Source of the DNA: Lagopus muta | Taxonomy: Eukaryota > Chordata > Aves > Galliformes > Phasianidae | Direction: 5' to 3' | DNA: 64,000 nucleotides | Assembly (NCBI RefSeq): GCF_023343835.1 | Contig: NC_064438.1 | Coordinates: 56,072,578 to 56,136,577, forward strand | Shown here: positions 29,801-64,000 of the stretch, piece by piece | Position numbering within the stretch: the stretch's first letter is position 1 | Layout of the letters: the number at the start of each line of letters is the position of its first letter | Program-made: the position numbers and the translations under genes | Notes under the pieces: model-generated | Seen by the model: only the letters and a program-made list of their open reading frames with translations | Told to the model about the DNA's origin: nothing | Databases searched by the model: none

Positions 29801-32800
29801 GTGTTCTGCTGCTCTGGCCCCTTCAGTGGATTATTACATTCCTCGTAGTCAATTGCTACTACTGCTGTGAGAATGATTTGCAGGTGTCAAAAGCTAGTTG
29901 GCCTATGGTAAATCAAGACTTCTGTACATGCACGCAGTTGTAGAAAGCAAATTACCTGAAATTGTTTCTTTTATGTTGGCTTTCAAGCAGTCATCTTACA
30001 ATTCTGCTAACATCTATTAGTAAACACTTTGTGATTTGGTAATATGGTGCTTCTTTTGTGCAGATAATTCCTTTTAAACACGAAGTGAACGAAAATGCTC
30101 CACTGGACCCAGTGATTTGTTCAGCATCAGAACTTAAACAGGAACAGACATCTGTAGAAAAGAACAACTCTGCTCCTGGAAGACCCAGAACGCGCTCCTT
30201 TGCACCACAGAATTTTGTGTTTCAGCCCTTAGAAGGACTAACAGCCTACAAAGTTACACCCATGACTCCATCTAGGGCAAATGCATTTTTGTCACCTGAT
30301 GCCTTCTGGGATTTCTCCAAATCTCCAGTGTAAGATTCTTGCTTCTAATAACCTAAAATGCAATGCAGCTTTTGTGATGCTACAGAGGAAGTGGTGTTTC
30401 TGTCGTGAGATTCCATGTGTAACAAGTTGTTGATACACCTGATCACAGTTGTTGTGTGAACCGAAAATAGTCTTCAGAATTTTGAGGTCTTGTGTGTTTG
30501 GTCATATTTGAGGTCAATTTCTCAACATTTCTTAATTCTTAAGCATATCTTTTTTCTTTTTTTCCCCTTAGTAATACAGTTGAAAAATCCAGTGAAACTA
30601 AGGTACAGGAGCCTAATTTAAGAAGTCAGATTTCACCTTCTGATCAAGACATTCAAGAACAGCAAGTGACTACAAGTTTGCAAGGAGAAGGTATCAAGTT
30701 CACGTATGGTTTATCACTGTACCTTTTCTAGTTTTCACCAGATTCTGAGTAAATGCCTTCCATATTTCTCAGCACACGAATCAGATAAGGAGGCTTCCAT
30801 TCAGAGATCCAACGAAACAATTCCTGTATCTACAGAAATGGCAGTGACAGAAACAAAGTCGGGTGATATAAGAGAGCAAGAGCATGATGTGCCCTATTTC
30901 AGGTTTGTGTCTATTTGTTTGCCTTCCTGGTTGTCTGTTCTGGGTCCTGAACGAGTAACAACTTGCAAACAGTAGCTTATGATGGTTGATGTCTGTCAGT
31001 AGCAATTTTGGTGGTCATCATTGCTGTCTTTCCTATTGTTAGTGCAAGTAAAGAATATGAAATTCTGAAGACTAATGCTCCATCCTGTGTACATAAAGCT
31101 TGAAAGTAATATAAATTACATTACAGCTAGTCTTAACTGAAGCAATCTAATGGGTTCTGCTCAAAGACTGTGTAACTTGTCTGAAAGCAAAAGGGGAATA
31201 ATAATTAACAGTTACAAATAGTGACAACAGTTGGAACATCCTCAAATTACTTTTCTCATTATTTATTTTAAGAAACATTCTACAGTCTGAGACAGAAAGA
31301 CTGATGTCTCAGTGCCTTCAGTGGGATGGAAAACTTGAGCTGGACATTCCAGAGGATGGTAAGACTGAGCTGTGATAGGCATAATTAGTAATAGTAGGCT
31401 CATCTCCTAATGTTACATCTTAAGTGTGATGTTTGAAGTGACAGTAGTGAATGCTGAGCTGCTGGTAGTTAATGTTGAAGTGCCTCTTGCTTTTCTGTGA
31501 AGTCTAAGTATGTCTGAATGCATGAGATTTAAGAAATATATATAAATGTTTTAACTTGCCTGTGCTTTTTTTATTTTAAAGACTTGCAGAATTGGTAGCA
31601 ATTGTATTTTTATTTTGTTTGAAAGGAAGGTTAGAGGATTTCAGTGGAGAGATGGGCTGCAAGTAAACTGCATTGCAGGTCTGAGCTTAGTCTAAAGAGC
31701 AAGCAGATTCCAAACTCTTCAGTTACTTATTTATATCAGTTGTGGAATGATGGCTTATTCCAGTATATTCTAAATACATTCTAATTTCTTCCCTTGGTTT
31801 CTTGTTACCATCAGCTAAAGATCTCATTCGCACAGCAGTTGGTCAGACAAGACTGCTTGTAGCAGAAAGGTTTAAACAGTTTGAAGGACTGGTGGATAAC
31901 TGTGAATTCAAGCGGGGTGAAAAGGAAACGACGTGTACAGACTTGGATGGATTTTGGGATATGATTAATTTTCAGGTATGTCCTTGCAGGTTTACTTACT
32001 GTAATAAATACACATGATGGAGGTACTTACCAACAATGCAGTGAATCTATTTTATTCATTTGAATATTCAGACTCAGATATTTTTTTCTGTTAAAAATGT
32101 GTCCTTGCTGAACGTTTTGTAGCAGTGAATAGCACCAGCTGGTATGCTGTGGTTTTAAACTTCATGGACCAGTTAAGCAATCTTTTGTAGAACCAGTTAC
32201 TGGAAAAAGATGTCTTACTTAGGCTTGCTGTATCTCTGGGGGCAGTTCAGGTTTCTTCTGGTCATCTGCTGGTTTACACAGAATCACAGAATTGTAGGGC
32301 CTGGGGGGGACCTCTAGAGATCATGGAGTCCAACCCCATTGCAAAGCTTTAGTTTGCTTTGGTGTTTGAAGCAGAAGTATTTAACAAATAGAAGCATGGC
32401 TGTGCATTTCATCTAACTTCCTAAACCAGTGGTTTTTTGTGTGTGAATGTTGTAAATCTTGTAAATTAAAGTTGGACTTCTCTGGGATTTCCAATAGATT
32501 GAAGATGTGAATAAGAAATTTGATAATCTGCAGAAGCTTCAAGATAACAAATGGCAACCAGTTGCTGTACCAGGCAAAGAAGCTGTCAAGGTACGTATGG
32601 CTCCTAAAGCATTCAGATACAACGATGTACTGAGATATTTAAAATAATTGGTAAGCTGTTGGAGTCCTGAATACTTTTCTTAAATGAAAGTTCCTTTTAA
32701 TGCCCTGCTTATAGATGTTGGTGATGATCAAAAAGTCCAGTGAAATTCTTCTCAAATTTCACCTTCCTTCCTTGCATCTTGCATGTGTGCTCAGAATTGG

Positions 32801-35800
32801 TGCTTTTGGTACTAGTTGCTCCTTTCTGTTGGGAAGATTAGAGCTGAGAATTAGCAATGGCTCATGGAGTCCTTGAACTCTTTGTTAGTAAGACAAATGA
32901 GTTAAATTTGAAACAGAAATTTACCCTTTGGATGTGAAACATTTTCTCTGAGCTGCCAGTGTTGGCACTGATGTGTCACAGGAATTTAGAAGTGCCTGGC
33001 AGTTTGAAGCAGTGAGTGCTAAGTGATAAAGGTGACTTATTAAGGTAGGACCATGGGCAGCTAATCCTCTGAGCATTAATAGGTCTGACACTGCCCCAAA
33101 TGTGGGATTGATTATTGCAGAATAGGCTTTAATGTAGGTTATTTTATTGACATTTTGGTCTGGAATATAGAATCCTAGAATGGCCTGGGTTGCAAAGGAG
33201 CACAGTGCTCATCCAGCTCCAACCCCCTGCTGTGTGCAGGTCACCAACCAGCAGCCCAGGCTGCCCAGAGCCACATCCAGCCTGGCCTTGAATGCCTGCA
33301 GGGATGGGGCATCCACAGCCTCCTTGGGCAACCTGTGCCAGTGCCTCACCACCCTCTGGCTCAAAAACTTCCTCCTCATATCCAACCTAAACCTCCCCGT
33401 CTCTGTTTAAAGCCATTCCCCTTTGTCCTGTCACCATCCACCCTCATAAACAGCCATTTCCCTCCTGTTTATCCAGTCCCTTCAAGTACTGGAGGGGCAC
33501 AATGAGATCTCCCTGGAGCCTTCTCTTCTCCAAGCAATATGTAGCTGTTCTTAATCACTCAGCATTAAGAATCATGTTCACATTGCCTGAACTCCATGCC
33601 ATTCCTCAAGACTGCTCAACTGATCATAACAATGATGTGAAGATCAATAAGAAACTCCAAACATGGAACTGGAGGAAGTGTAGTCTTACATCAGCTGACC
33701 ATAAACGTCTCAACTGTAGTTACTGTACACGACACAAAACTTCCTTTGAAATATGAATGCCAGGAGAGACTTCACTGCTTAACGAGTGTCTGCCCATGAG
33801 TTACTTTATGTCCGTGCCACTAGGAGTCCCTGCACCCCACTCTTTTCAAAAACGTGAACTACAGCAGTTAGAGAAAGCACTAAGGAAAATTTATACCAAG
33901 TATTTGTGAGCTGAGAACTTGGTGTGAGAAACTGACTTAAAACTGCCATTGTAAATGAACCTTGGCAGATAAATGGCAGACCAAGACTTTCTGGAGATAA
34001 ACAGAGATCTTGTCTCTAGCAGAGGCCTGCTGCTGTCTGTGTCCAGCAGCCTCCTGGATGTTCACGTGCAGCTATTTGCCTGAAGCTTCTATTTTCTTTC
34101 TATTTCAGAAGCAGACTGTTCCAAATATGGTCTGTAAACCAAAGCTGGGAGCAGCTGGAAGGACTGCTGCCCGAAAGAGGCTTGCTGCTGTGAAAGCTGC
34201 TATGAGGGATAAAATGAAGCAGGATGGAGTTGCTGATAGTGCGTATCAGGATAAGCAACCGGAAGTAGAAAAAGTGGTTTTTGAAGCAGGATTTTTCAGA
34301 ATTGAAAGCCCTGTAAAAAGCTTTCCAGGTGGGTGAAGCTTAATCATTATTTCTCTGACCTGAAAATGCTGAAGAGATTTGAAGCAAGCTCACTGCAGAC
34401 AGATTATGCTGTTTATACTGGATATAACTCCAGTGCTAGGCACAATTAACGTTTCATCTAATGATTTGTTACGTCAGGGAACCAAAGTAAACCGTTCTGC
34501 ATGATTGCCATAATTGCTCAAATCAGCACGATGTGAATTCTTTACCTACATACAGAGTTACAAGCAGTTGTATCCATTTTTTTTCTTAACGTACGTTTAG
34601 CAATGAAATTTTCATCTGGGCATTCCTAGACTTAGCAGGCAGCACGTTCAGAGTCAATGCAGGCTGATGGCTTTTATTTGTAAGATAGGAATTGGAATTA
34701 GTGTGAACTAAATTTTGCTGGCTTCCAGCTTGCAAATACAGCACACCTGTAATCAGAATTCATGTGCAACAAGATTGCAGTATATTCCAATCTGCTAGGA
34801 AAGCTGCTGGGAGCTTTTCTTGAGCAGAAGCTCCAAACAAGGCTGTAATTTGGGCATTTATCTTATTGCAATCTGTGAAGCTCGTGCTTTCTGTGATCCT
34901 GGTTTAACAGCTGCGCTGCTTCTCTCCCCTATTTCAAGTGCCAAAGATGATTTTGAGTTTCCAAAGATTCTCTCAATGAGTGTTATAAAAATCAATTAGG
35001 AATTTATCTTTTTTAATTCTATCAAAATTATATAATATGAGATATTGAGTTTCATGACAAGAGCTTCCACTGCGTAGATCTAATGAGAACAGCAAATCTC
35101 ATTGTTTCAGGTTCTGTGTGAAGAGTAGTTGTGCTACATTGCTGAGCTGGTGTAAAGGTAGCTTTGTAACTTATTGCTGTGGTTGCCACCACATCATTTT
35201 TTCAGTTTCTGCTTGCAGTGTACAGAACAAATATAATATTTATGTAAAACACACAAGAAAAAGTAGAGTGTTACCAGCTAGAATCCTAACCATTCCATCT
35301 TCTGGAAATTGCTGTTGTAACAAAGCTTTAAATGCTCTTTTTCAGGTTCACTTTCAAAGACGCCTCGCAGATCAGGGCAGCAGACTTGGGAAGGTCTGAC
35401 AGCTCCAAGATCATCCAGGAGAGCTTTGCTGCAGGGCAGCTCTGTGCCTTGTAACCCTGAGGATACAACTGCAAAACAAACGACGCCACTGCTCGAAGGC
35501 TGCCACCCAGCACAGCGTTTGGAAGTGCACCCATGTCCCACTGAAACAACTCTCCCTGGTGGTTTTCTTGAACAAAGGTAGCCACGTTCAGGCAGCTGTT
35601 AATTGAGCTTTGTGCAGCTAATTGTACAGTTTCAATTAGAAGAATTAATCTTAATGTCCATTAAGTGTTAACCTTCTTTCAGTGGGGGAGGGACAAAGGT
35701 TGTGAAGTTGTTCTGCCTTTTCCATCCCTCAAGCAGACGTTAAGAGCTCTGCCCAAATGTCGTCTCATTGCAGGCTAGGAGTTTGGGGGTTTTTTGTCCA

Positions 35801-38800
35801 GAAAACTTTATATAGCTGACTTGTGCCAAACCAGCAAGCAGAATTGGAAAGCTCATTTCAAATCAGTTGTGCACGTTGCAATCTTTTGATTGAGAAGAAT
35901 TAAAAGATTGTTGTTTCTCTTTCAGCATTTCCCCAGCTGCAGAAGAACACAATCCTGTTGCTGGCGCAGCAGAGGGCACCTGGGTAAGTCATGCTTAGTT
36001 CATGTATGTCCTTTAAACATCTTTCTACTATTAACTGAAGACAAAGAGTGACAGATATTCACATCTTAAGTGGGTAGGCACCTTGATTCATTATCCTTGT
36101 GTGCAGAACAGTGATTTGATGCTTCAAATCTACCTATTGCAGCAGCTCTCGTTGCCTGAGGAAATTCAGTGCTGTGTTCAAAGCTTTTCCACTTGCTACT
36201 TTCTTGCCCTGTCCCACTCAGGATAAGGGTGCCCAAGTGCCCAAACCTGATCTGCTGGTTTCACAGTTGGTTTTTATTAGCCCTGGGTACCTGGATATCT
36301 GATCAAACATTCAAAGTACCTTTGGTGTTCCTCAGGATGAGGCGTTTTCCTGTTCTGTAGGACACAGATTAGGACTGCTGCAGCTTTCTTGCATTCTCTC
36401 TATTTTTGGAGCTACCTTTTGGAGCTCTTGTTGGCTCTGCTGTATGATGCTCATCACTTGTCCCAGCACAGCTCCTTCAAGCCCCCTCCTGTTTTTCTGG
36501 TGTGAATTTTTAAATGGATTTGCATTTGGGGGGCTAAGCCTAAAAGGAATAATAGTCTCTAGCTCTCTGGGTCTCTGTTGCCACATCAAAGCACAAGGCT
36601 GTTAAACTGTTCAAAGGTGCAGCAAGAGCATAGTTGGTAACACAGGCATCAGAGTTCAGGAATCTGTGTCCTGATGTGTCTGTGGGCTTGGTGATATGCC
36701 AGCTTCTGAGTAGCCATTGAAGTCCAGAATGCAGCCTCCACAGTAGTTCCTTTCATTGGGAATCTAGGGTCTTCATTTTTGTTACTTCTTGGATCTGTAC
36801 ATTGCTGCAGCAGTGTTTATATATACATACATGTGCACACGTACATGCTTGTGTTTTAAAGTCTGTTACTGTTTGCTCTTCTTTTTTTCTGCTGTTTTCA
36901 CAAGTCACATGAGGAATTACTTGTTGGTGATGCTACTATCTGGAGAATCTGGCAATCTGTAACATTTGGTATTGCTGGTGGTATTTTTCTGAGGCAAAGT
37001 CTCACAAGAGAACAACCTCAGAATGCTTTTTGGCACTTTAAGTTCAAAATCCATTTGTGGAGGAATTTCCCTATATGCTCTTCAAAAGATAATCCCATTT
37101 ATGAGGGTGCTTGGCAAATAGTTCACGGGAAATAAATCGCAGTGTTAAGCTCACAGCTTTGCTTTTCCTGACCTTTGTACAAGCTCAAGTTCAAAAGCTC
37201 TCTCTCCTAAATTGCCAGTGAGACCTGTAGATGTCATGTATGAATTGTTTAACACAATACAGATGTGTTGGTTGTTGTAAACTCGCTTCCCTTGAATGTC
37301 CTGGCCACCTCTTCTCCTTTGTGCTTGCTGCATCAAAGCTACCAAAGTGCCTTTTACAACAGACAAAACAGAAAAGGAAGCTTCCTGGTGTCATTCAAAC
37401 TGCTTTATGTCCTGATTGCGCTGATGTTTTGCTTCTGCCTCTCTGGGAAGCAAACACAGCTGACATCTGAGCTCTACAGAGGGTTAGGAACAGTTAAAAT
37501 TCCTGTTTTTTCAGGTGCTGGAAAACTGTAGCAGTGAATTAAAAGCAGTGGATGACATGGAAGAGATGGAACTGTCTGCTCCAGAGCAACAGGGCCAAGA
37601 TCCCACCATGTGCAGCCCAGAGAAGGGTACGTGCACTGGGTTCAGCTTCACTCAGCCTGGAGAACCAAAAATGCATCAGATGGGTACACATCTTCAAGCT
37701 GTTGCAGTTTGTGGTATTGCTGGGTTATGTTTGTTCTACAGACTTTATAGTCTAAATATTACTCTTTGAAATCACTGCTGTTGTAGCTTTGTGAGTCTGT
37801 GTGTGCTTGTAGCAAAACCTGTGTTTGTTAGCATGACTTATGTGTGCTCTGCACATGAACAAACAGTTCCCATGGCTTCCCTATGTAGTTGCCCTGTGGT
37901 ACATGAAGCAGAAAGCTTCTAGAAGAGGCTTGCAGTAGAAGTAGTTGCCAGCTGATCTGTTTTGCTTCAGTAAATGCAGGAAACAATACTGTTTTTTCAG
38001 CCTTAGCAATATCAGGCTAACCCTCAGAAGAAAATAACAAAGTGTTCTTATTTTTCAGACATTTTCTTGAGAGATTTGGCTTCCATTGACAGAAATCCTT
38101 CAGATACAGTAAGTTGACCTTTCAGTTTATTTGGCTACAGTCTGCTTGTTAACAATACCATTAACCTTTTCTGCAGAATCAGTTTCTACATGAAGTAAAT
38201 TAAGCTCTGGAGGGTGATGTTATCAAACCAAAGCACACAGCTTACTCTAATAAATGCAGGCCACAATTCCTGTCCCCTTGTTCTGGCTCACACTCATTCC
38301 TCGTTGCACACATCAAACACAGGACAAATTGAGACTTGTAACAGAAGAATGACTGATCTCTTTGGGCTGATCACTAAAATGACTTCTCTTGTGGATTTCC
38401 TTGTAGATATTTACTAACATAATGAACCACCTGACCTCTTCCTTCCACTTACTTGGAGTTTTCCAGCTCTGTTCCTTCCCATCTCTATAGTTTTATCTTC
38501 TGCAGACAGAAGCAAGGTGCAGCAAGGAAAAACAGATGTACAAAAGCTTTCAAGCAGCTAAAAGAACTTGGTTGTACAGCTTTCTTGGTCTCAAATAGAA
38601 AAAAAAATCCTCTTTAACTTATAGATTACTGCATTAAGTAATGACTGCCTTCATAAAGGACCACCTACTGGCTCCTTATTTTCTGCCTAGAAATAAGCTT
38701 GCAGGATTCCTTAGGAAGGCCATGGAACTTGAAGTGGTGAATGACTTCTTCAAAGCGACATGCACAGCTCCAAGCACCACATAAAGACAAGGACGTGAGC

Positions 38801-39125
38801 ATTTCTGCATCCACCAAACTGCTGTGCATTTCAGGAAGGGTTTCAGATTTCCCTGGCAGGTCTTTGCTGTGCATGTTGTGAAGCTGCAGTGTGCCCATAG
38901 GGGGTTTGCCATTAGCTTGTTTCGTGTGCCCTTGCAGTGCTGGTTTGTAGAGCAGACACCAGTTGCTTCTGAGTGCTTATTTCCCACTGATTTCTCCCAT
39001 AGCCCATGCTGGATGCTGAGCTTCCCTTCACTCCAGTCAAGAACAACGTCCAGAAGTTCACAGCAGCTGAAAGGTTCAGTGACCTGATTGTATTTTCTCC
39101 TCTTTCTCCCTCTGGAGAAAAATGA
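20575..39125 (+). CDS. DLGAP5: DLGAP5 (HURP), complete copy, 18 coding exons
   Basis: DLGAP5/HURP bundles and stabilises kinetochore microtubules in mitosis. In vertebrates it is an importin-beta/Ran-regulated cargo and an Aurora A substrate. Joining the 18 exons listed below gives 815 codons with no stop, close to the human length of 846. The N-terminal half is basic. It contains a charged helix (about residues 88-120, with [20 protein letters not shown]) and the ITRSKAK block of exon 4, the part that binds microtubules in HURP. The C-terminal half carries the GKAP family domain, including [14 protein letters not shown] (exon 8), [15 protein letters not shown] (exons 10-11), [13 protein letters not shown] and [11 protein letters not shown] (exon 12), and [16 protein letters not shown] (exon 14). 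The start ATG (20,575) is the first in frame after the exon 2 acceptor. Exon 8 is crossed by the left edge of the 18.4-kb duplication. A poly(A) signal follows at 39,146. Confidence 0.93.
21848..22335 (-). mobile_element. CR1 LINE fragment in DLGAP5 intron 2
   Basis: It begins TAGAATTCTAGCATGGCCTG and runs through the CR1 3' region to CTCTGGACCCGCTCT. On the minus strand it retains the C-terminal ORF2 signature ([19 protein letters not shown]). It ends about 123 bp before the exon 3 acceptor. Confidence 0.95.
22459..22667 (+). CDS. DLGAP5: DLGAP5 exon 3
   Basis: The acceptor is TTTACCTCAG|AACAATC and the donor is GAAAAG|GTAATG. It encodes the charged helix and the [10 protein letters not shown] motif conserved in HURP. 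Confidence 0.93.
23114..23206 (+). CDS. DLGAP5: DLGAP5 exon 4
   Basis: The acceptor is GTTTCCAG|GCAGCT. The donor ACG|GTTTGT is weak but canonical GT. It encodes 31 residues including [13 protein letters not shown]. Confidence 0.88.
24769..24853 (+). CDS. DLGAP5: DLGAP5 exon 5
   Basis: The acceptor is TTCCTTTGTAG|GTCTGT and the donor is GGCAAAG|GTATGA. It encodes a short basic, weakly conserved linker ([20 protein letters not shown]). Both phases fit the neighbouring exons. Confidence 0.8.
26765..26851 (+). mobile_element. CR1 LINE 3' end in DLGAP5 intron 5
   Basis: It ends in CCCTTCCAACCCAAGGCATT followed by CTATGATTCTA, the CR1 3' tail on the plus strand. It is a short truncated copy. Confidence 0.9.
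26978..27076 (+). CDS. DLGAP5: DLGAP5 exon 6
   Basis: The acceptor is TATTTCTTAG|TGTTGC and the donor is ACTG|GTAAGT. The Ala/Arg-rich peptide [18 protein letters not shown] resembles the LRMTRSA-type segment of HURP. Confidence 0.87.
28132..28202 (+). CDS. DLGAP5: DLGAP5 exon 7
   Basis: The acceptor is TTCCTCTTCAG|GTAACA and the donor is ATAGAG|GTAGGT. It encodes a lysine-rich linker ([20 protein letters not shown]). Phases are consistent on both sides. Confidence 0.85.
29391..29612 (-). mobile_element. CR1 LINE fragment in DLGAP5 intron 7
   Basis: It begins ATCACAGAATCACAGAATGG and runs through AGGGTTGGAAGGGACCTC and the CAGGGCCACCAACCTCCAC block. Reverse CR1 orientation. Confidence 0.94.
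30064..30329 (+). CDS. DLGAP5: DLGAP5 exon 8 (contains duplication edge)
   Basis: The acceptor is CTTTTGTGCAG|ATAATT and the donor is CCAGT|GTAAGA. It encodes residues 267-355, with the conserved [19 protein letters not shown] and [14 protein letters not shown]. The repeated unit starts at 30,159, just before the codon for residue 299. Confidence 0.93.
30572..30690 (+). CDS. DLGAP5: DLGAP5 exon 9
   Basis: The acceptor is TTTTTCCCCTTAG|TAATAC and the donor is GAGAAG|GTATCA. It encodes a poorly conserved acidic linker. The second-copy equivalent is 48,957-49,075. Confidence 0.87.
30773..30902 (+). CDS. DLGAP5: DLGAP5 exon 10
   Basis: The acceptor is ATATTTCTCAG|CACACG and the donor is TTTCAG|GTTTGT. 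It ends in the conserved HDVPYFR motif that opens the GKAP core. Confidence 0.9.
31273..31358 (+). CDS. DLGAP5: DLGAP5 exon 11
   Basis: The acceptor is TTTATTTTAAG|AAACAT and the donor is GAGGATG|GTAAGA. It encodes [10 protein letters not shown] and [12 protein letters not shown], strongly conserved in the GKAP family. Confidence 0.93.
31815..31975 (+). CDS. DLGAP5: DLGAP5 exon 12
   Basis: The acceptor is TTACCATCAG|CTAAAG and the donor is TTTCAG|GTATGT. This is the most conserved part of the GKAP domain, with [26 protein letters not shown] and [12 protein letters not shown]. Confidence 0.95.
32277..32345 (-). mobile_element. CR1 LINE 3' end fragment in DLGAP5 intron 12
   Basis: ACACAGAATCACAGAATTGT is followed by GACCTCTAGAGATCATGGAG and TCCAACCCC, the reverse CR1 tail. 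The second copy is at 50,662-50,730. Confidence 0.85.
32498..32590 (+). CDS. DLGAP5: DLGAP5 exon 13
   Basis: The acceptor is GATTTCCAATAG|ATTGAA and the donor is GTCAAG|GTACGT. It encodes 31 residues starting [14 protein letters not shown], the end of the GKAP core. Confidence 0.92.
33168..33533 (-). mobile_element. CR1 LINE fragment in DLGAP5 intron 13
   Basis: It starts AGAATCCTAGAATGGCCTGG and runs through the CR1 3' region to GGAGCCTTCTCTTCTCCAAG. Reverse orientation. The second copy is at 51,553-51,918. Confidence 0.95.
34109..34328 (+). CDS. DLGAP5: DLGAP5 exon 14
   Basis: The acceptor is TTTCTATTTCAG|AAGCAG and the donor is TTTCCAG|GTGGGT. It encodes the [19 protein letters not shown] helix and [17 protein letters not shown], both conserved. 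Confidence 0.94.
35346..35577 (+). CDS. DLGAP5: DLGAP5 exon 15
   Basis: The acceptor is GCTCTTTTTCAG|GTTCAC and the donor is GAACAAAG|GTAGCC. It encodes a fast-evolving Ser/Thr/Pro-rich segment beginning [13 protein letters not shown]. The frame is intact and both phases fit. Confidence 0.87.
35926..35983 (+). CDS. DLGAP5: DLGAP5 exon 16
   Basis: The acceptor is TTTCTCTTTCAG|CATTTC and the donor is ACCTGG|GTAAGT. It encodes a short segment, [20 protein letters not shown]. Confidence 0.82.
37515..37626 (+). CDS. DLGAP5: DLGAP5 exon 17
   Basis: The acceptor is GTTTTTTCAG|GTGCTG and the donor is GAGAAGG|GTACGT. It is an acidic segment with DDMEEMEL and TMCSPEK; the latter resembles the SSPEK motif of mammalian HURP. 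Confidence 0.87.
38059..38108 (+). CDS. DLGAP5: DLGAP5 exon 18
   Basis: The acceptor is CTTATTTTTCAG|ACATTT and the donor is GATACA|GTAAGT. It encodes 17 residues, [17 protein letters not shown]. Confidence 0.82.
39003..39125 (+). CDS. DLGAP5: DLGAP5 exon 19 (last)
   Basis: The acceptor is TTTCTCCCATAG|CCCATG and the stop is TGA at 39,123-39,125. The ending [16 protein letters not shown] matches the conserved HURP C-terminus pattern. Confidence 0.92.
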   Translation, partial: PMLDAELPFTPVKNNVQKFTAAERFSDLIVFSPLSPSGEK

Positions 39126-39145
39126 ATGACTGGAAATTTGAAATG

Positions 39146-39151
39146 AATAAA
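39146..39151 (+). terminator. DLGAP5: DLGAP5 poly(A) signal AATAAA
   Basis: A canonical AATAAA lies 21 bp after the stop codon, implying a very short 3' UTR. The second copy is at 57,531-57,536. Confidence 0.75.
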
Positions 39152-39171
39152 TTCTATTCAGTAGAAAACAG

Positions 39172-41634: not shown

Positions 41635-41651
41635 TTTACTTGTGAAAATGC

Positions 41652-41657
41652 TTTATT
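41652..41657 (-). terminator. LGALS3: LGALS3 poly(A) signal AATAAA
   Basis: TTTATT on the plus strand is AATAAA on the gene strand, 85 bp after the stop codon. Cleavage is expected near 41,630. The second copy is at 60,037-60,042. Confidence 0.75.
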
Positions 41658-41741
41658 GCTTCAAAATAATCAGACAGGAAGGCACTCCTGTTACAATTCT
41701 CTGAAGAGTGCTAGACTTGTGTTAAAGGCACAGCTTGCTAA

Positions 41742-41897
41742 TTAAATCATGGAGGTGAAAACGCTGGTGAGAGTGATGTCCCCAGCAATGCAGAGCTTGG
41801 TGATCTCATTCAGCTTCTTCTCACGGAAGCCGTACTGCAGCAGGTGAGCATCGTTCACTGCTACCTTGAAGTGATCCCCCTCACAGAGCACCTGGAG
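41742..41897 (-). CDS. LGALS3: LGALS3 exon 6 (last coding)
   Basis: The acceptor on the gene strand is TTCTCTTTCAG|CTCCAG. It encodes 51 residues, with [15 protein letters not shown] and KLNEITKL conserved in galectin-3, and stop TAA at 41,742-41,744. Confidence 0.95.
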
Positions 41898-45010: not shown

Positions 45011-45112
45011 CTGTTAGGAATGCCACCCCACTGAACACGGAGGAATCGGATGCATTGAAGGTTCCAACTCACTGCTGGGCCATCGCCCATCCCGGCGGCG
45101 CCCGACGTGAGT

Positions 45113-51918: not shown

Positions 51919-54900
51919 GCAATATGTAGCTGTTCTTAATCACTCAGCATTAAGAATCATGTTCACATTGCCTGAACTCCATGCCATTCCTCAAGACTGC
52001 TCAACTGATCATAACAATGATGTGAAGATCAATAAGAAACTCCAAACATGGAACTGGAGGAAGTGTAGTCTTACATCAGCTGACCATAAACGTCTCAACT
52101 GTAGTTACTGTACACGACACAAAACTTCCTTTGAAATATGAATGCCAGGAGAGACTTCACTGCTTAACGAGTGTCTGCCCATGAGTTACTTTATGTCCGT
52201 GCCACTAGGAGTCCCTGCACCCCACTCTTTTCAAAAACGTGAACTACAGCAGTTAGAGAAAGCACTAAGGAAAATTTATACCAAGTATTTGTGAGCTGAG
52301 AACTTGGTGTGAGAAACTGACTTAAAACTGCCATTGTAAATGAACCTTGGCAGATAAATGGCAGACCAAGACTTTCTGGAGATAAACAGAGATCTTGTCT
52401 CTAGCAGAGGCCTGCTGCTGTCTGTGTCCAGCAGCCTCCTGGATGTTCACGTGCAGCTATTTGCCTGAAGCTTCTATTTTCTTTCTATTTCAGAAGCAGA
52501 CTGTTCCAAATATGGTCTGTAAACCAAAGCTGGGAGCAGCTGGAAGGACTGCTGCCCGAAAGAGGCTTGCTGCTGTGAAAGCTGCTATGAGGGATAAAAT
52601 GAAGCAGGATGGAGTTGCTGATAGTGCGTATCAGGATAAGCAACCGGAAGTAGAAAAAGTGGTTTTTGAAGCAGGATTTTTCAGAATTGAAAGCCCTGTA
52701 AAAAGCTTTCCAGGTGGGTGAAGCTTAATCATTATTTCTCTGACCTGAAAATGCTGAAGAGATTTGAAGCAAGCTCACTGCAGACAGATTATGCTGTTTA
52801 TACTGGATATAACTCCAGTGCTAGGCACAATTAACGTTTCATCTAATGATTTGTTACGTCAGGGAACCAAAGTAAACCGTTCTGCATGATTGCCATAATT
52901 GCTCAAATCAGCACGATGTGAATTCTTTACCTACATACAGAGTTACAAGCAGTTGTATCCATTTTTTTTCTTAACGTACGTTTAGCAATGAAATTTTCAT
53001 CTGGGCATTCCTAGACTTAGCAGGCAGCACGTTCAGAGTCAATGCAGGCTGATGGCTTTTATTTGTAAGATAGGAATTGGAATTAGTGTGAACTAAATTT
53101 TGCTGGCTTCCAGCTTGCAAATACAGCACACCTGTAATCAGAATTCATGTGCAACAAGATTGCAGTATATTCCAATCTGCTAGGAAAGCTGCTGGGAGCT
53201 TTTCTTGAGCAGAAGCTCCAAACAAGGCTGTAATTTGGGCATTTATCTTATTGCAATCTGTGAAGCTCGTGCTTTCTGTGATCCTGGTTTAACAGCTGCG
53301 CTGCTTCTCTCCCCTATTTCAAGTGCCAAAGATGATTTTGAGTTTCCAAAGATTCTCTCAATGAGTGTTATAAAAATCAATTAGGAATTTATCTTTTTTA
53401 ATTCTATCAAAATTATATAATATGAGATATTGAGTTTCATGACAAGAGCTTCCACTGCGTAGATCTAATGAGAACAGCAAATCTCATTGTTTCAGGTTCT
53501 GTGTGAAGAGTAGTTGTGCTACATTGCTGAGCTGGTGTAAAGGTAGCTTTGTAACTTATTGCTGTGGTTGCCACCACATCATTTTTTCAGTTTCTGCTTG
53601 CAGTGTACAGAACAAATATAATATTTATGTAAAACACACAAGAAAAAGTAGAGTGTTACCAGCTAGAATCCTAACCATTCCATCTTCTGGAAATTGCTGT
53701 TGTAACAAAGCTTTAAATGCTCTTTTTCAGGTTCACTTTCAAAGACGCCTCGCAGATCAGGGCAGCAGACTTGGGAAGGTCTGACAGCTCCAAGATCATC
53801 CAGGAGAGCTTTGCTGCAGGGCAGCTCTGTGCCTTGTAACCCTGAGGATACAACTGCAAAACAAACGACGCCACTGCTCGAAGGCTGCCACCCAGCACAG
53901 CGTTTGGAAGTGCACCCATGTCCCACTGAAACAACTCTCCCTGGTGGTTTTCTTGAACAAAGGTAGCCACGTTCAGGCAGCTGTTAATTGAGCTTTGTGC
54001 AGCTAATTGTACAGTTTCAATTAGAAGAATTAATCTTAATGTCCATTAAGTGTTAACCTTCTTTCAGTGGGGGAGGGACAAAGGTTGTGAAGTTGTTCTG
54101 CCTTTTCCATCCCTCAAGCAGACGTTAAGAGCTCTGCCCAAATGTCGTCTCATTGCAGGCTAGGAGTTTGGGGGTTTTTTGTCCAGAAAACTTTATATAG
54201 CTGACTTGTGCCAAACCAGCAAGCAGAATTGGAAAGCTCATTTCAAATCAGTTGTGCACGTTGCAATCTTTTGATTGAGAAGAATTAAAAGATTGTTGTT
54301 TCTCTTTCAGCATTTCCCCAGCTGCAGAAGAACACAATCCTGTTGCTGGCGCAGCAGAGGGCACCTGGGTAAGTCATGCTTAGTTCATGTATGTCCTTTA
54401 AACATCTTTCTACTATTAACTGAAGACAAAGAGTGACAGATATTCACATCTTAAGTGGGTAGGCACCTTGATTCATTATCCTTGTGTGCAGAACAGTGAT
54501 TTGATGCTTCAAATCTACCTATTGCAGCAGCTCTCGTTGCCTGAGGAAATTCAGTGCTGTGTTCAAAGCTTTTCCACTTGCTACTTTCTTGCCCTGTCCC
54601 ACTCAGGATAAGGGTGCCCAAGTGCCCAAACCTGATCTGCTGGTTTCACAGTTGGTTTTTATTAGCCCTGGGTACCTGGATATCTGATCAAACATTCAAA
54701 GTACCTTTGGTGTTCCTCAGGATGAGGCGTTTTCCTGTTCTGTAGGACACAGATTAGGACTGCTGCAGCTTTCTTGCATTCTCTCTATTTTTGGAGCTAC
54801 CTTTTGGAGCTCTTGTTGGCTCTGCTGTATGATGCTCATCACTTGTCCCAGCACAGCTCCTTCAAGCCCCCTCCTGTTTTTCTGGTGTGAATTTTTAAAT

Positions 54901-57530
54901 GGATTTGCATTTGGGGGGCTAAGCCTAAAAGGAATAATAGTCTCTAGCTCTCTGGGTCTCTGTTGCCACATCAAAGCACAAGGCTGTTAAACTGTTCAAA
55001 GGTGCAGCAAGAGCATAGTTGGTAACACAGGCATCAGAGTTCAGGAATCTGTGTCCTGATGTGTCTGTGGGCTTGGTGATATGCCAGCTTCTGAGTAGCC
55101 ATTGAAGTCCAGAATGCAGCCTCCACAGTAGTTCCTTTCATTGGGAATCTAGGGTCTTCATTTTTGTTACTTCTTGGATCTGTACATTGCTGCAGCAGTG
55201 TTTATATATACATACATGTGCACACGTACATGCTTGTGTTTTAAAGTCTGTTACTGTTTGCTCTTCTTTTTTTCTGCTGTTTTCACAAGTCACATGAGGA
55301 ATTACTTGTTGGTGATGCTACTATCTGGAGAATCTGGCAATCTGTAACATTTGGTATTGCTGGTGGTATTTTTCTGAGGCAAAGTCTCACAAGAGAACAA
55401 CCTCAGAATGCTTTTTGGCACTTTAAGTTCAAAATCCATTTGTGGAGGAATTTCCCTATATGCTCTTCAAAAGATAATCCCATTTATGAGGGTGCTTGGC
55501 AAATAGTTCACGGGAAATAAATCGCAGTGTTAAGCTCACAGCTTTGCTTTTCCTGACCTTTGTACAAGCTCAAGTTCAAAAGCTCTCTCTCCTAAATTGC
55601 CAGTGAGACCTGTAGATGTCATGTATGAATTGTTTAACACAATACAGATGTGTTGGTTGTTGTAAACTCGCTTCCCTTGAATGTCCTGGCCACCTCTTCT
55701 CCTTTGTGCTTGCTGCATCAAAGCTACCAAAGTGCCTTTTACAACAGACAAAACAGAAAAGGAAGCTTCCTGGTGTCATTCAAACTGCTTTATGTCCTGA
55801 TTGCGCTGATGTTTTGCTTCTGCCTCTCTGGGAAGCAAACACAGCTGACATCTGAGCTCTACAGAGGGTTAGGAACAGTTAAAATTCCTGTTTTTTCAGG
55901 TGCTGGAAAACTGTAGCAGTGAATTAAAAGCAGTGGATGACATGGAAGAGATGGAACTGTCTGCTCCAGAGCAACAGGGCCAAGATCCCACCATGTGCAG
56001 CCCAGAGAAGGGTACGTGCACTGGGTTCAGCTTCACTCAGCCTGGAGAACCAAAAATGCATCAGATGGGTACACATCTTCAAGCTGTTGCAGTTTGTGGT
56101 ATTGCTGGGTTATGTTTGTTCTACAGACTTTATAGTCTAAATATTACTCTTTGAAATCACTGCTGTTGTAGCTTTGTGAGTCTGTGTGTGCTTGTAGCAA
56201 AACCTGTGTTTGTTAGCATGACTTATGTGTGCTCTGCACATGAACAAACAGTTCCCATGGCTTCCCTATGTAGTTGCCCTGTGGTACATGAAGCAGAAAG
56301 CTTCTAGAAGAGGCTTGCAGTAGAAGTAGTTGCCAGCTGATCTGTTTTGCTTCAGTAAATGCAGGAAACAATACTGTTTTTTCAGCCTTAGCAATATCAG
56401 GCTAACCCTCAGAAGAAAATAACAAAGTGTTCTTATTTTTCAGACATTTTCTTGAGAGATTTGGCTTCCATTGACAGAAATCCTTCAGATACAGTAAGTT
56501 GACCTTTCAGTTTATTTGGCTACAGTCTGCTTGTTAACAATACCATTAACCTTTTCTGCAGAATCAGTTTCTACATGAAGTAAATTAAGCTCTGGAGGGT
56601 GATGTTATCAAACCAAAGCACACAGCTTACTCTAATAAATGCAGGCCACAATTCCTGTCCCCTTGTTCTGGCTCACACTCATTCCTCGTTGCACACATCA
56701 AACACAGGACAAATTGAGACTTGTAACAGAAGAATGACTGATCTCTTTGGGCTGATCACTAAAATGACTTCTCTTGTGGATTTCCTTGTAGATATTTACT
56801 AACATAATGAACCACCTGACCTCTTCCTTCCACTTACTTGGAGTTTTCCAGCTCTGTTCCTTCCCATCTCTATAGTTTTATCTTCTGCAGACAGAAGCAA
56901 GGTGCAGCAAGGAAAAACAGATGTACAAAAGCTTTCAAGCAGCTAAAAGAACTTGGTTGTACAGCTTTCTTGGTCTCAAATAGAAAAAAAAATCCTCTTT
57001 AACTTATAGATTACTGCATTAAGTAATGACTGCCTTCATAAAGGACCACCTACTGGCTCCTTATTTTCTGCCTAGAAATAAGCTTGCAGGATTCCTTAGG
57101 AAGGCCATGGAACTTGAAGTGGTGAATGACTTCTTCAAAGCGACATGCACAGCTCCAAGCACCACATAAAGACAAGGACGTGAGCATTTCTGCATCCACC
57201 AAACTGCTGTGCATTTCAGGAAGGGTTTCAGATTTCCCTGGCAGGTCTTTGCTGTGCATGTTGTGAAGCTGCAGTGTGCCCATAGGGGGTTTGCCATTAG
57301 CTTGTTTCGTGTGCCCTTGCAGTGCTGGTTTGTAGAGCAGACACCAGTTGCTTCTGAGTGCTTATTTCCCACTGATTTCTCCCATAGCCCATGCTGGATG
57401 CTGAGCTTCCCTTCACTCCAGTCAAGAACAACGTCCAGAAGTTCACAGCAGCTGAAAGGTTCAGTGACCTGATTGTATTTTCTCCTCTTTCTCCCTCTGG
57501 AGAAAAATGAATGACTGGAAATTTGAAATG

Positions 57531-57536
57531 AATAAA
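57531..57536 (+). terminator. DLGAP5: Poly(A) signal of truncated DLGAP5 copy
   Basis: AATAAA at the same distance from the stop codon as in the first copy. Confidence 0.7.
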
Positions 57537-57556
57537 TTCTATTCAGTAGAAAACAG

Positions 57557-60019
57557 AAGCTGTCTGGAACACCATCTGCAACCCCTGAGCTGTGTTCTTT
57601 GTGACACCTGTGCTATTTTTGAGTGGAACTTGGTAGAAAACTTGGTAACATTTCTGCTGTGAGCAGTGGTGCAGTCACTGCACTGTGCATATTGCTGTGC
57701 AGTTTGCTGGCTTTACCTCCTGCATCCAATGAAATATTCTGAAATATTCTTATTTGTTTATAATTTCATGTATTTCTTGTCTCAGAGTTATAAAACTGTC
57801 CACCTTAATTCTCTTCTGTCTTGGCTTTAATTACTTTGTGAGTTGTTTTTATGAGATGGGATATGGGTTGTGTAACAGACATGTTCCATTAGCTGCTCCT
57901 ATCTCCATTTGTGATGAGGGCACCTCCAGAGGTGCCTGTTATCTACCCCAAAGCACTGTTTTGTATTCAGTGCTGTTGCAGCCTTTAGCTCCAGTACTCT
58001 GTGCATTAACTGCACCTAATCAGCAGATGGGATGAGGTTAGATTCTTTCCTTTCCTGTGGGATTTTTCCTATTGCCTAACAATCACTTGCTTGAATTTCT
58101 GCTGTTAACGAAGCATTTCAAAACCAGATAATATCTATTCCTTACAGTGTGTTAATAGGGATGGATTTTTGAAGATGCTCAGTGCTGAGCTGTGTCATTA
58201 AGTACCTTCAAGCTAAATTCCATTTTCTTTTTCATCTGGCAGTCCCTTAACCACTCTCCTTGAACGTTTGGCTGTTAACCTCAGCTTCCTCTTGCATCTT
58301 TCTCTCATCTGGACTAATCTATTTAAGCACAAGGAGTGTGCCAGTTCCTGCTACTCCAACATGGAGTTTATATGTAGTAGAATACCTCCAGTTCTTATAT
58401 TTTTAAGAGGTGCCTGATCAGCCTGCTTCTTGTGATGCTGTTCCTTGTGTGCTGCACACATTCTTCCACTGGCCTTTATTGTCAGCTGAGCAAATGCCAC
58501 ACAAACCCTTCAGCAGAAGGCATTGTTGTTACATCTGGGGCTTTGTTGTTTGACTGCAGTTCTGACTTGGAAGTTGTGTACTGATAGCACTGAAATAAAT
58601 GGAGGAAGCTGACCTGACCCAGGTTAATGTGCTGGAATGAACTTTTGGTTTTATAGATAGCTTCAAAAAGATAAAAGGCAAGTCAGTAAGAGCTCTTCAC
58701 AGAATGGCCCGGGTTGGAAGAGACCTCAAGGATCACAAAGCTCCAACCCCCCACCACAGGCTGGGCCACCAACCTCCACATTTCACAGCAGCCCAGGCTG
58801 CCCAGGGCCCCATCCAACCTGGCCTTCAACACCTCCAGGGATGGACGGGGCATCACAGCCTCTCTGGGCAGCTGTTCCAGCACCTCACCACTCTCACAGC
58901 ACACAACTTCCCCCTGACATCCAACCTCCATCTGCCCTCCCTCAACTTCAAGCCATTTCCCCTTGTCTTACTGTTATCCACCCTTTCAAAGAGTTGCCCC
59001 CCTCTTTATAGGCTCCCTTTAGGTACTGAAGGCCGTACTTCTCAGTGTTCAGAGCTGCAATGAATAGTGGTAACAGTGGCTCTACTAGTGGTGTGCCTGT
59101 CCTAGGCAAGAACTTTGAACATTGGGGTTGTTGTTTGGCAACTCCATGGATAAATGAAGCAACTGTTACAAAAGGCTGTGGGATGTGTTGGAGAGATCCT
59201 AAACAACTCCAGTAGTGGCTCTTACGTTGTTGTTCTGCAGACAAGACTGGAAGAATGTTCCCTCTTCTGTGAGTCATACTTGATTTACCAGCGTGACTCA
59301 TGTGCTGAGCTTGCCAGTAAACCTCCACCCCACCCCTGAAACTGCTCTTGGCTGATGGAGAAGTGCTGAGGTGGGAGAAGAACCACAGGGCTCATGCTCT
59401 GTGTGCTGGGGGGTGCAATGTATGTAAGGAGTGCATCTCCCTCGGGTTGGAAGTGTGACAAGGATATGCAGATTTAGGCCACTCTAAGCAGCTGTGCAGG
59501 CAAAACAAGAAATGGAGAAGGGGGGCAGTTTTGCTTCCTCCAGCCTTAACTCTGAGCCCCCTCCTGAAATGCCTTGTCTGATCCTGACCAGAACACTTGA
59601 GCTTTCAGTGTTCTCTGGTGTTGCTTAGTTGCTTAGGTCACTGAAGTGGCACTTTGTCACTTATGCACAAACCTTCCCAGCCTGGCTATGCAATTCCTAT
59701 TCTCCTGTTCCCCCTTTAGAGAGAACCAAAGCACCACTTTGCAGCACTACTTTGATACAGGAATGACTGCTCTACTAACAGAGGAACTGAGGCTAAAACA
59801 TTGATCAGTTATCTGGGACTTCCAGCAGTAATCTTCAGCCCTATCTTAACTCATTCACAGGACAACTGCCTGTAGGCTACATACAGCTTTCCCACATATT
59901 CTTCCTGCAAATCAGAAATGATTCATAGTCATTATCCTCTGGCAGAGGTTCAAATTCTAAAGCAAGAATTCGGCTTCTTCCACATCCAAATACAGCTTGC
60001 ATCTTAACCAAAACCAAAT
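57557..60019. other. Duplicated DLGAP5-LGALS3 spacer
   Basis: Identical to 39,172-41,634. No gene is seen apart from the duplicated CR1 at 58,698-59,045. Confidence 0.6.
58698..59045 (-). mobile_element. CR1 LINE fragment (duplicate of 40,313)
   Basis: Identical to 40,313-40,660 and carried by the tandem duplication. Confidence 0.94.
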
Positions 60020-60036
60020 TTTACTTGTGAAAATGC

Positions 60037-60042
60037 TTTATT
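60037..60042 (-). terminator. LGALS3: LGALS3 second-copy poly(A) signal
   Basis: AATAAA on the gene strand, 85 bp after the stop codon as in the first copy. Confidence 0.75.
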
Positions 60043-60126
60043 GCTTCAAAATAATCAGACAGGAAGGCACTCCTGTTACAATTCTCTGAAGAGTGCTAGA
60101 CTTGTGTTAAAGGCACAGCTTGCTAA

Positions 60127-62258
60127 TTAAATCATGGAGGTGAAAACGCTGGTGAGAGTGATGTCCCCAGCAATGCAGAGCTTGGTGATCTCATTCAGCT
60201 TCTTCTCACGGAAGCCGTACTGCAGCAGGTGAGCATCGTTCACTGCTACCTTGAAGTGATCCCCCTCACAGAGCACCTGGAGCTGAAAGAGAAATGCAAA
60301 GTGAGCCAAATTGGAACCATCAGCTGCAGGAACACCAGTGACCTTTGCCTTCCCCAGAGCCCTGCTGTGCTCATCTTCCTTGATGATTCAGCTGCAGTGT
60401 CTGTCCCATGACTACGCCTTTCAAGCAGCATGAAATGCAGGGAGGGCAGAGTGCACCCGTTTGTTTGGCAGGAGAAACAGACTGGGGAGAGAGCTGGAAT
60501 GCACTGCAGGTTTTAGGAGGAAGTTCTTCAGCCAGAGGGTGGTGAGGCACTGGCACAGGTTGCCCAAGGAGGCTGTGGATGCCCCATCCCTGCAGGCATT
60601 CAAGGCCAGGCTGGATGTGGCTCTGGGCAGCCTGGGCTGCTGGTTGGTGACCTGCACACAGCAAGGGGTTGGAACTGGATGAGCACTGTGCTCCTTTGCA
60701 ACCCAGGCCATGCTGTGATTCTGTGACAATGGATGCCTTACAGCAACCTGCCCAATAGCTGCTGCACAATAACAGCACCAGTAGGGAGAATGCAATAAGA
60801 AATGGGAATAACAGATTTTTTTTTAATTTCTTTTCTCCATTGTTACCTTGAAGGGGGCTCCAGGTTCAAATGGAAATCTAGGAGCTGTTCTCTCCTCTTT
60901 TCCCCAGCTGTTGTGGAACATTGAGTTACAGACGATGACCCTTTTGCGGTCTTCCTTGAAACGGGGGTTAAAGTGGAAGGCAATGTCTTGCCCCCTCTTG
61001 AAATCCAGTGAAAACCTGCAAAGGCAATAATCTGTGAGCTGCTTTTTCTGCAGAAGACACGAGCTGTCTCCCAGGGCTGCTGGAAAGCAGCAGCAAGCGG
61101 ACAAAAATGCACAGGGCCCACTGGGTAACAACAGGGCAGTTCTGGAGGATTTGCATGGTCGTTTTGAGTCCCGTTTGATTTCACAGAAGGTGGGTGCTAT
61201 TCAGAAAGTGAACTCTGCCCCTTAACGCTATCGCAACCCATCCGTACCTGCTGGGGTTTGGGTTCACAGTCCCCGTGATGGTTATGAGCATGCGAGGCAT
61301 GAGTCCTGCTGGTAGAGGAAGATCGTAGGGGACTTTCTGGAGAGGACAGAGATTTTGGTGTTAGCAGAACAGCATGTTGGTGAGCAGCACAGGCCTGACG
61401 GTCAGGCAGGGGCTGGGTGTTGGTGTGACAGCAGTGTGGCTGCTCATGCAGCTCCTAAAGACACACACCCCAGGTGCCACCCACAGCCGAGCACAACGAG
61501 CAACCAGAGAAAGCAAAAGCTTTCAAATATGTCTGAGCTGTTACCAGTGGAGCAGCTGGTGCTCCGGAGAATGGTGCAGCTGGTCCTCCAGAATAGGGTC
61601 CTGCTGCTGCTGGTCCTCCCGGATAAGGCCCTGGTGGTCCTCCAGGGAATGGTCCGGGCGGTCCATGATGTGGTCCAGGTGGTCCATGATGCGGACCAGG
61701 TGGTCCATGATGCGGTCCCGGTCCCCCAGGGTATCCGGGGTATGCCGGGAAGGCCCCAGGACCTGGGGGCTGGTTCCAGCCCTGGGTTGGGGGGGCACCA
61801 GGGTTGTGAGTAGGCAGGGCGTCAGAGAGCTGGGGATGGAGGGGAGAGTAGGAGGAGAAAGACAGGCAGCATCCGGTAGGGCTGCCAGCACCTGGCCTTC
61901 ATGGCCTGCGCGACGCCAAGCGCTGCGTCTGAAACGGCCAGGAGCCCCAGTGGTGCTGAGAGCCCAAAAGTCCCTTAATGCTCCTTGATTGGTGTTACAT
62001 GGATTGGTAACAACGCGGAATCGTAGAATCACAAAATCATTAAGGTTGGAAAAGACTTCAGAATCACCATTCTCACTGCCCACATCCCTCACAACGCATC
62101 CCCACGGTTCCTAAACGCCTCCAGGGATGATTTCCTCACTGCTCCCTGGGCAGCTGGGCCAAGTCCCACCACAAGTCCCCACCTTCACGCAATGACCACC
62201 ATGGGGCCCCTGTGTGTTTGTTCAAGAAATCAATACTCACAGAGAAACCGTCCGACAT
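60127..62258 (-). CDS. LGALS3: LGALS3 (galectin-3), second copy, complete
   Basis: Coding exons in gene order are 62,258-62,241, 61,829-61,545, 61,336-61,248, 61,015-60,847 and 60,282-60,127. They join to the same 238-residue galectin-3 as the first copy, and I found no difference. All splice sites, the stop and the poly(A) signal are present, as is the GC-rich exon 1 region (donor at 63,235). This copy is therefore predicted to be functional if the duplication is real. Its 5' surroundings match the first copy to at least the end of the window, about 0.77 kb past exon 1. In a true tandem array it would be an additional gene raising galectin-3 dosage. In an artefact it is the same gene shown twice. 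Confidence 0.88.
60495..60728 (+). mobile_element. CR1 LINE fragment in LGALS3 intron 5 (duplicate of 42,110)
   Basis: Identical to 42,110-42,343 and carried by the tandem duplication. Confidence 0.95.
61660..61722. repeat. LGALS3: 21-bp coding minisatellite (duplicate)
   Basis: The same three units as 43,275-43,337. The unit number and sequence have not diverged between the two gene copies. Confidence 0.85.
62020..62175 (-). mobile_element. CR1 LINE fragment (duplicate of 43,635)
   Basis: Identical to the intron 2 CR1 of the first LGALS3 copy. Confidence 0.87.
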
Positions 62259-62985
62259 TTTTCCTACAACAAAAAGGAGATCGTGAGGTCATTTTGTGCC
62301 CCTCCCAGGTTACACGGCTGTTTGTGGTTCATCACCTCCATCATAACCGCTGCTGGGCCCAGAGGTGCCACAGAATCCCAAACCCAAAGGCCCAGCCTGC
62401 AGCTGGGATGGGATGGGAGAGGAGGGGTCCTACAGGGGGACCCCCTGTGCTGTTCCTATGGGAGACGTGTGGTCTGCAGTGGGGTTTGCAGCCACCCCAA
62501 AAGGCGAAGCTGCGCCATGCAGAAATGCTGCGGCCCGGGGCTGAATGCCTGCTATCAAAGAGTGCATTCATAAACCAAGAGAGGAGAAAGAAAAAACAAA
62601 CAAACAGGGAGAGGCAGAAATGGGAGGGAAAAAGGAAAATTCCAAAGGGAAAGCAGAGAAGTCTAATTCTCTTCAAATGAAACACTGAGCAACACAAAGG
62701 TCTGAGTGAACCTGCTTCAGCAATACGGAAATCACGCCGAGTTTCCCCAGCACCAAACCCTTCCCCCAGCAAAAGGCAGCACAGAGCCTGCGTGACTTCT
62801 AAGCAGTCCTGGAGCAATGACTTTCAGCTGCCCCAACCTGGCAGTGCAGATATTTGCCTTCTGCTTTTTCCACCCCTCTGCTTCCCAGGGTGCAGGACCC
62901 AGTGCTCCACTAACTGCAGGCAGCCCCAGCACAGCCAGGCAGGTGCCAACGAACCCCACGAGTTCTGAAAGTCCCACTTTATAAT

Positions 62986-63050
62986 TCGCAGAGCGGTTAA
63001 GGTTGGAAAAGACCCCCTAAGATGGCTGAGTCCAACCATCACGTCGGCTC
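62986..63050 (-). mobile_element. CR1 LINE 3' end fragment (duplicate of 44,601)
   Basis: Identical to the intron 1 CR1 tail of the first LGALS3 copy. Confidence 0.7.
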
Positions 63051-63234
63051 CTGCCAGGCTCAGCCTTTGCCACGCATTGGGAAACCATTTGGGAAAAGGA
63101 TTTCGAAGCAAAGCAACCTCGATACGTGAAGGATGGTGGGCAAAGCCGTACAACCCAACTCGCCAAGGATGGGAGCTCTGTCCAACCCCGGACCCCCAGT
63201 GCCAGCACTCAGCCCCTTCCCGGAGCTCCCTTAC

Positions 63235-63395
63235 CTGCAGGTGTCGGGCCGTGTAGCAGGGCCGGGTGTCGGGCTGCGCTCTGGGGCTGGGCAATATCCC
63301 CACCCATAGCTGCCCCAGCCCCGGGGCGGAGCACCGAGCAGAGCCCAGCCCCGCGGGCAGCACGGCACGAGGACACCCGCGGCGTCCCCTCCCAG
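63235..63395 (-). promoter_or_regulatory. LGALS3: LGALS3 second-copy exon 1 and promoter
   Basis: This has the same donor (ACCTGCAG|GTAAGG) and GC-rich upstream sequence as the first copy, so both genes would carry equal proximal promoters. Confidence 0.62.
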
Positions 63396-63497
63396 CTGTT
63401 AGGAATGCCACCCCACTGAACACGGAGGAATCGGATGCATTGAAGGTTCCAACTCACTGCTGGGCCATCGCCCATCCCGGCGGCGCCCGACGTGAGT

Positions 63498-63555
63498 CAT
63501 AGGATCATAGAGCCATAAAACCACCGAGGTTGGAAAAAGACCTCAAAGATGGAGC
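63498..63555 (-). mobile_element. CR1 LINE 3' tail fragment (duplicate of 45,113)
   Basis: Identical to 45,113-45,170 and carried by the tandem duplication. Confidence 0.82.
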
Positions 63556-63839
63556 AGCAGCTAACGCCCAGGAGCCCAGCACAGCACGCTGAATCCACTC
63601 CTGGAGTGATGGCAGCGCTGCTTAAAGCGGGGTGAAAGGCAAAGATGTGCAGGAGTGCTGGAATGCTTTTGCTGTGCAGGCAGGCTGAGGGTGCAGCCCA
63701 GGACGGAGGGCTTTTCCAAGAGGTTCTGGTGTTTTTCATCTCCTGCTGCAAAAGTGTTGCAGCTTCAGTTACACAACAGACACAGTGTTACAAAAGCAGA
63801 AATGAAAACAGGAAACAGAACCCGAGCGTGGGTTCATTC

Positions 63840-64000
63840 ACAGAATCACGGAATGGCCCGGGTTGGAAGGGACCTCAAGGGTCACGAAGCTCCAACCCCC
63901 CTGTGCCATGCAGGGCCACCAACCTCCACATTTCACAGCAGCCCAGGCTGCCCAGGGCCCCATCCAACCTGGCCTTCAACACCTCCAGGGATGGACGGGG
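63840..64000 (-). mobile_element. CR1 LINE fragment cut by window end (duplicate of 45,455)
   Basis: It starts TCACAGAATCACGGAATGGC as at 45,455 and is identical to the last base of the window. Confidence 0.94.

Follow-up and report, generated by a model that had tools for sequence, protein, structure and literature searches.

An exact 18.4-kb tandem repeat carrying LGALS3 in the rock ptarmigan assembly, probably a very young duplication with a filler at its junction

In the assembled genome of the rock ptarmigan Lagopus muta, a sequence of more than 18 kb that contains the galectin-3 gene LGALS3 and the 3' part of DLGAP5 is followed after 14 bp by a second, identical copy of itself. This raises the question of whether the locus was duplicated in the bird or only in the assembly. 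We analysed a window of 64,000 nucleotides (NC_064438.1, contig C9 of the genome searched, positions 56,072,578-56,136,577) and read on for 20 kb to its right. Based on the sequence of the copies and of their junction, we consider it probable that the repeat is genuine, a direct tandem duplication with a unit of 18,371 bp that arose very recently.

The initial annotation had reported that the sequence from 30,159 repeats at 48,544 with one offset to the end of the window and with no visible divergence, and both statements held: the offset of 18,385 is constant from 30,159 to the window end, and all of the 15,457 bases compared agree (0 mismatches). Moreover, the identity extends past the window to 48,529 in copy 1 and 66,914 in copy 2, i.e. 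over 18,371 bp, again with 0 mismatches, and is not regained within the following 200 bp. Thus, the 18,385 bp previously given as the length of the duplication is correct as the period, the spacing of the copies, while the duplicated unit itself measures 18,371 bp. The left edge is sharp, as the first 8 bases leftward of 30,159 and 48,544 all differ. By comparison, no other exact direct repeat in the window exceeds 138 bp, less than a hundredth of the unit. The two copies are in the same orientation, adjacent, 14 bp apart, 100% identical over 18,371 bp and bordered by unrelated flanks, as in a direct tandem segmental duplication. The parts of the repeat are as follows:

30159..48529, no strand: copy 1 of the unit, 18,371 bp, 0 mismatches to 48,544-66,914
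48530..48543, no strand: 14-bp junction filler CAGAGAGAGCAGAG, absent from copy 2 and from both outer flanks
48544..64000, no strand: part of copy 2 inside the window, continuing to 66,914

Neither the window nor the adjoining 20 kb on the right contains an N. Across 284 kb surrounding the locus we counted three short N runs, all of them outside the window and at least 45 kb from the repeat, in a sequence in which gaps and masked stretches look alike and contig boundaries are not listed. In the whole genome (1,026,658,476 bases in 165 contigs), DNA searches with three pieces of the locus returned only the expected full-length places, one of these searches having scored the best 40 of 400 candidates. 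The intact left flank occurs at one place and the truncated start of copy 2 also at one place (both of the two candidates scored). The assembly therefore contains no second, single-copy allele of that end.

The 14 bases between the copies set the junction apart from a plain head-to-tail join. The 14-mer CAGAGAGAGCAGAG occurs only once in the 284 kb, with both strands counted. The left flank of copy 1 ends in ...CATCTGTAGA and copy 2 is followed by GTCCTGCTGAGC, with the filler at neither place, and the single-copy state is predicted to read ...GGGCCCACGCC straight into GTCCTGCTG. Snap-back copying of the copy-1 end in four tracts with 2-nt priming is sufficient to reconstruct the whole filler: CC primes CAGAG, AG re-primes twice (AG and AGCA) and CA re-primes once (GAG). 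With the adjacent end as the template, an equally good reconstruction was obtained for 2 of 5,000 shuffled fillers, for 41 of 20,000 sets of random flanks around the same filler, and for 5 of 20,000 random 14-mers of the locus placed at the true junction. With both ends allowed as templates, the corresponding numbers were 5/5,000, 122/20,000 and 8/20,000. In addition, the filler ends in 8 bases that are found as the reverse complement at bases 10-17 of copy 2. Snap-back synthesis by DNA polymerase theta has been described (PMC4912351), and under the four-tract model the filler is an insertion templated from a nearby end, as in polymerase theta-mediated end joining (TMEJ).

Homology that spans the breakpoints was not found: in an ungapped comparison, the 200 bp to the left of 30,159 and of 48,544 are dissimilar. 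Between the 1-kb flanks, blastn gave a direct match of 115 bp (83%; 29497-29611 and 47565-47678), at a distance of ~0.55 kb from 30,159 and ~0.85 kb from 48,529, to the left in both cases, and an inverted match of 92 bp (85%; 29399-29490 and 66,986-67,076), neither of which reaches a breakpoint. Both matches are probably pieces of the repeat whose tails we take to be CR1, a name carried over from the initial annotation rather than from a repeat-library search. Without homology across the breakpoints, recombination between repeats is unlikely, and neither the 200-bp comparison nor the 1-kb flanks contain homologous repeats at both breakpoints, as non-allelic homologous recombination would use. 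We therefore rejected such recombination between CR1 copies: several near-identical CR1 tails are present in the unit and the flank matches reach 83-85%, but none is at a breakpoint. As a separate observation, the 138-bp stretch at 21903-22040 recurs at 33224-33361, 42142-42278 (minus strand) and 47534-47662 as shorter or equal exact matches, and was 100% identical at all 40 of the 40 genomic places scored (the best 40 of 372 candidates, copies in the window included). By its look this is a 3' tail of what we call CR1, and its uniformity suggests that the subfamily is very young. In a survey of seven galliform genomes published in 2021, intact CR1s were found only in chicken; the main text of that survey does not name Lagopus (PMC8665684).

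Several points weigh against a genuine duplication made by end joining, and some of them concern the filler itself. With 3-nt priming and up to four tracts the filler cannot be templated fully, nor could any of 5,000 shuffles. By simpler measures the fit is weak, both for the longest match between the filler and the junction flanks (0.022 against shuffles and 0.035 against random flanks) and for coverage of the filler by matches of at least 6 (0.044 and 0.087, respectively). Moreover, the snap-back model was picked after the filler had been seen, and the filler is purine-rich and repetitive. It has an AG-repeat 8-mer in common with the SMRTbell adapter; we judged this 8-bp match to be of low complexity and rejected an adapter remnant as the source. 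Among worms, no such tandem duplication is reported in 240 wild-type generations (PMC7368036), and those of helq-1 mutants are smaller, ~100 bp-10 kb (PMC8654963). The remaining points concern the assembly. The evidence consists of the assembled sequence of one assembly, zero differences are also the expected outcome of an artefact, and 18.4 kb falls within the range of long-read lengths. Perfect identity and a unit close to a read length are also what would be seen in a homotype false duplication, in which one stretch is placed twice at overlapping contigs or through a chimeric read, here with 14 junk bases at the seam. Such duplications, which are under-collapsed pairs of near-identical sequence, often lie at contig boundaries and are about as long as a read (PMC8081667). 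False duplications are mostly separated by a gap, and gapless false joins produced by wrong gap filling are known (PMC9516828). In the ptarmigan, by contrast, no N separates the two copies, and this type of error does not predict that copies should meet without a gap at a filler that matches the neighbouring end and is explicable by snap-back copying. The bLagMut1 rock ptarmigan assembly was built from PacBio HiFi reads with hifiasm, purge_dups, Salsa2 and manual curation (PMC10320755); if the assembly analysed here is bLagMut1, both purging and curation were applied to it. The study of false duplications also includes a true allele-specific tandem duplication inside one contig (PMC9516828). 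In total, we regard a homotype false duplication as unlikely, though as a possibility to be reckoned with.

Heterotype false duplications, in which two haplotypes of one individual are placed side by side, are the main type in the bird and platypus assemblies examined in PMC9516828. The initial annotation had doubted this origin, and the doubt is borne out: 18 to 175 differences would be expected at a heterozygosity of 0.1-0.95%, and none is present in 18,371 bp. Even with 18 expected at 0.1%, zero has a probability of ~1e-8; a homozygous stretch would be needed, and the filler would still be unexplained. A pair of haplotypes is thus extremely unlikely and was rejected. Gene conversion or unequal exchange might also have kept the copies of an older duplication identical, since direct tandem copies are generally able to convert each other. 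However, the copies agree up to the final base on either side, without a diverged shoulder, and recency suffices to explain this; we consider this origin very unlikely. Of the three options left open previously, a very recent event is thus best supported, by the gapless join and a filler that is explicable as copied, homogenisation is not needed, and an assembly error fares worse as re-use of an overlap does not predict the filler.

How young the duplication would be can be bounded from the absence of differences. With a mean bird mutation rate of 1.01e-8 per site per generation, for which the lower limit of the mean is 6.1e-9 (PMC9995274), zero differences in 18,371 bp correspond to an age of less than ~8,100 generations (13,400 at the lower-limit rate) at 95%, assuming that both copies were resolved correctly and that the assembler did not collapse them into a single consensus. 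The duplication is possibly still segregating.

The unit carries two genes, of which one is complete:

20581..37679, plus strand: DLGAP5 (HURP) gene, from tblastn with human DLGAP5, PDB chains and Pfam GKAP
30064..30329, plus strand: DLGAP5 coding exon cut by the left breakpoint at 30,159, human residues 306 onwards; edges approximate (AG/GT sites)
41742..43873, minus strand: LGALS3 (galectin-3) copy 1, 238 aa, spliced by hand at GT/AG sites into an open frame
44501..45250, no strand: GC-rich, moderately CpG-rich stretch (GC 0.63-0.64, CpG o/e 0.59-0.62), candidate LGALS3 promoter
48362..48718, plus strand: open frame of 118 aa between stops that begins in the region upstream of LGALS3, crosses the filler and enters the DLGAP5 exon
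48544..48715, plus strand: truncated copy of the DLGAP5 exon, start of a DLGAP5 copy that lacks its 5' part (tblastn 100% over 56 aa, 48,548-48,715)
60127..62258, minus strand: LGALS3 copy 2, five exons as in copy 1, identical coding sequence in the spliced frame

Human DLGAP5 gave 12 tblastn matches in 1-48,529. Six are strong (E 1e-26 to 2e-10) and span 20,581 to 34,330; the other six are weak (E 0.009-0.50), among them 37,551-37,679 (0.025) and a candidate last exon at 39,003-39,113 (0.50). Two of the exons match the DLGAP5 chains 9dhz_C and 8x9p_C in PDB, and one matches Pfam GKAP. The part of DLGAP5 upstream of 30,159 is outside the unit. Because the left breakpoint is inside a coding exon, copy 1 leaves DLGAP5 whole and copy 2 begins with a 5'-truncated version.

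LGALS3 copy 1 has five coding exons (43873-43856, 43444-43160, 42951-42863, 42630-42462 and 41897-41742) with the start at 43,873 and the stop at 41,742. The 238-aa frame contains Gly/Pro-rich N-terminal repeats and one C-terminal galectin domain (Gal-bind_lectin, PF00337, residues 104-233, E=2.5e-37), as expected of galectin-3. The best matches of the last exon are galectin-3 chains; for the middle domain exon, a chain of the two-domain galectin-9 is top by E-value, with galectin-3 chains next. For a 901-bp piece that includes LGALS3 exons II-III, two places in the genome match at full length and 100% (best 40 of 400 candidates scored), and the other 39 among the matches listed are partial, at 71-94%. 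Each copy of the unit thus holds a complete LGALS3 with ~4.7 kb of upstream sequence, in which the stretch at 44501..45250, judged by its composition, may be the promoter. The 118-aa frame across the junction may be a chance product. The idea that the LGALS3 N-terminus has exons in common with a neighbour, presumably MAPK1IP1L, was dropped: tblastn with this N-terminus against the 284 kb found both LGALS3 copies, all further hits having E values of 0.024 or worse, and a literature search on such sharing surfaced only works unrelated by title.

Elsewhere in and near the window, a strong CpG island at 11001-12000 (GC 0.69-0.77, CpG o/e 0.99) may be a promoter, that of the gene lying upstream of DLGAP5 (presumably FBXO34, by synteny). 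An uninterrupted run of 41 T lies at 18346-18386, and on the same contig, ~28.7 kb left of the window start, a 12-bp unit forms an array whose repeats are exact for more than 400 bp.

If the duplication is genuine, it could have arisen from two broken or stalled ends of one locus, one in the DLGAP5 exon and the other ~4.7 kb upstream of the LGALS3 start codon, that were joined head to tail by end joining. Prior to joining, the end on the right-hand side of the unit would have folded back and gained 14 bases copied from its own last ~20 bases, a snap-back extension in the style of DNA polymerase theta. We infer this order of steps and the enzyme from the filler, its fit to the neighbouring end and the breakpoints without homology, all of which are observed in the assembly. 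The product would be two complete LGALS3 genes with a promoterless 3' part of DLGAP5 between them, next to the original, whole DLGAP5. The likely effect, if any, would be a higher dose of galectin-3. A fuller version, in which a young, possibly segregating germline duplication of galectin-3 bears a snap-back scar and transcription from upstream of LGALS3 yields a chimeric transcript that expresses the DLGAP5 fragment via the open frame, seems to us quite unlikely in all its parts together. Theta-dependent tandem duplications in brc-1/brd-1 worms range from 1 kb to 1 Mb, with the majority at ~10-20 kb (PMC7368036). The 18,371 bp of the ptarmigan unit fits this size, which supports a genuine duplication.

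A true duplication would show a new gene copy before any mutation, so that the fate of an identical LGALS3 pair (loss, dosage or divergence) could be followed in the population, and its junction would show a repair route in a bird. Moreover, a filler explicable by copying of the neighbouring end helps to separate a real perfect duplication from an assembly error without reads. A literature search on Lagopus, galectin and copy number found nothing, and one on LGALS3 and DLGAP5 in birds surfaced only a study that by its title concerns the mouse cochlea.

Three known systems resemble this locus in part. The avian galectins Gal-1A and Gal-1B are likewise a bird galectin in two copies; however, the two are homologues of a prototype galectin and differ in their properties (PMC4224342), whereas the ptarmigan pair is galectin-3 without divergence. 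The homotype false duplications described by the VGP are copies that are nearly perfect, lie on one scaffold and are about as long as a read, as here, but the ptarmigan copies are gapless and have a filler at their junction. Like TMEJ tandem duplications, the ptarmigan repeat is head to tail, with a junction that lacks long homology, a short insertion for which the flank can serve as template, and a size within the brc-1/brd-1 range. Those duplications were found in C. elegans repair mutants and have been linked to BRCA1-deficient tumours (PMC7368036, PMC8654963), while the ptarmigan event would presumably have occurred in the germ line, with polymerase theta as its candidate enzyme.

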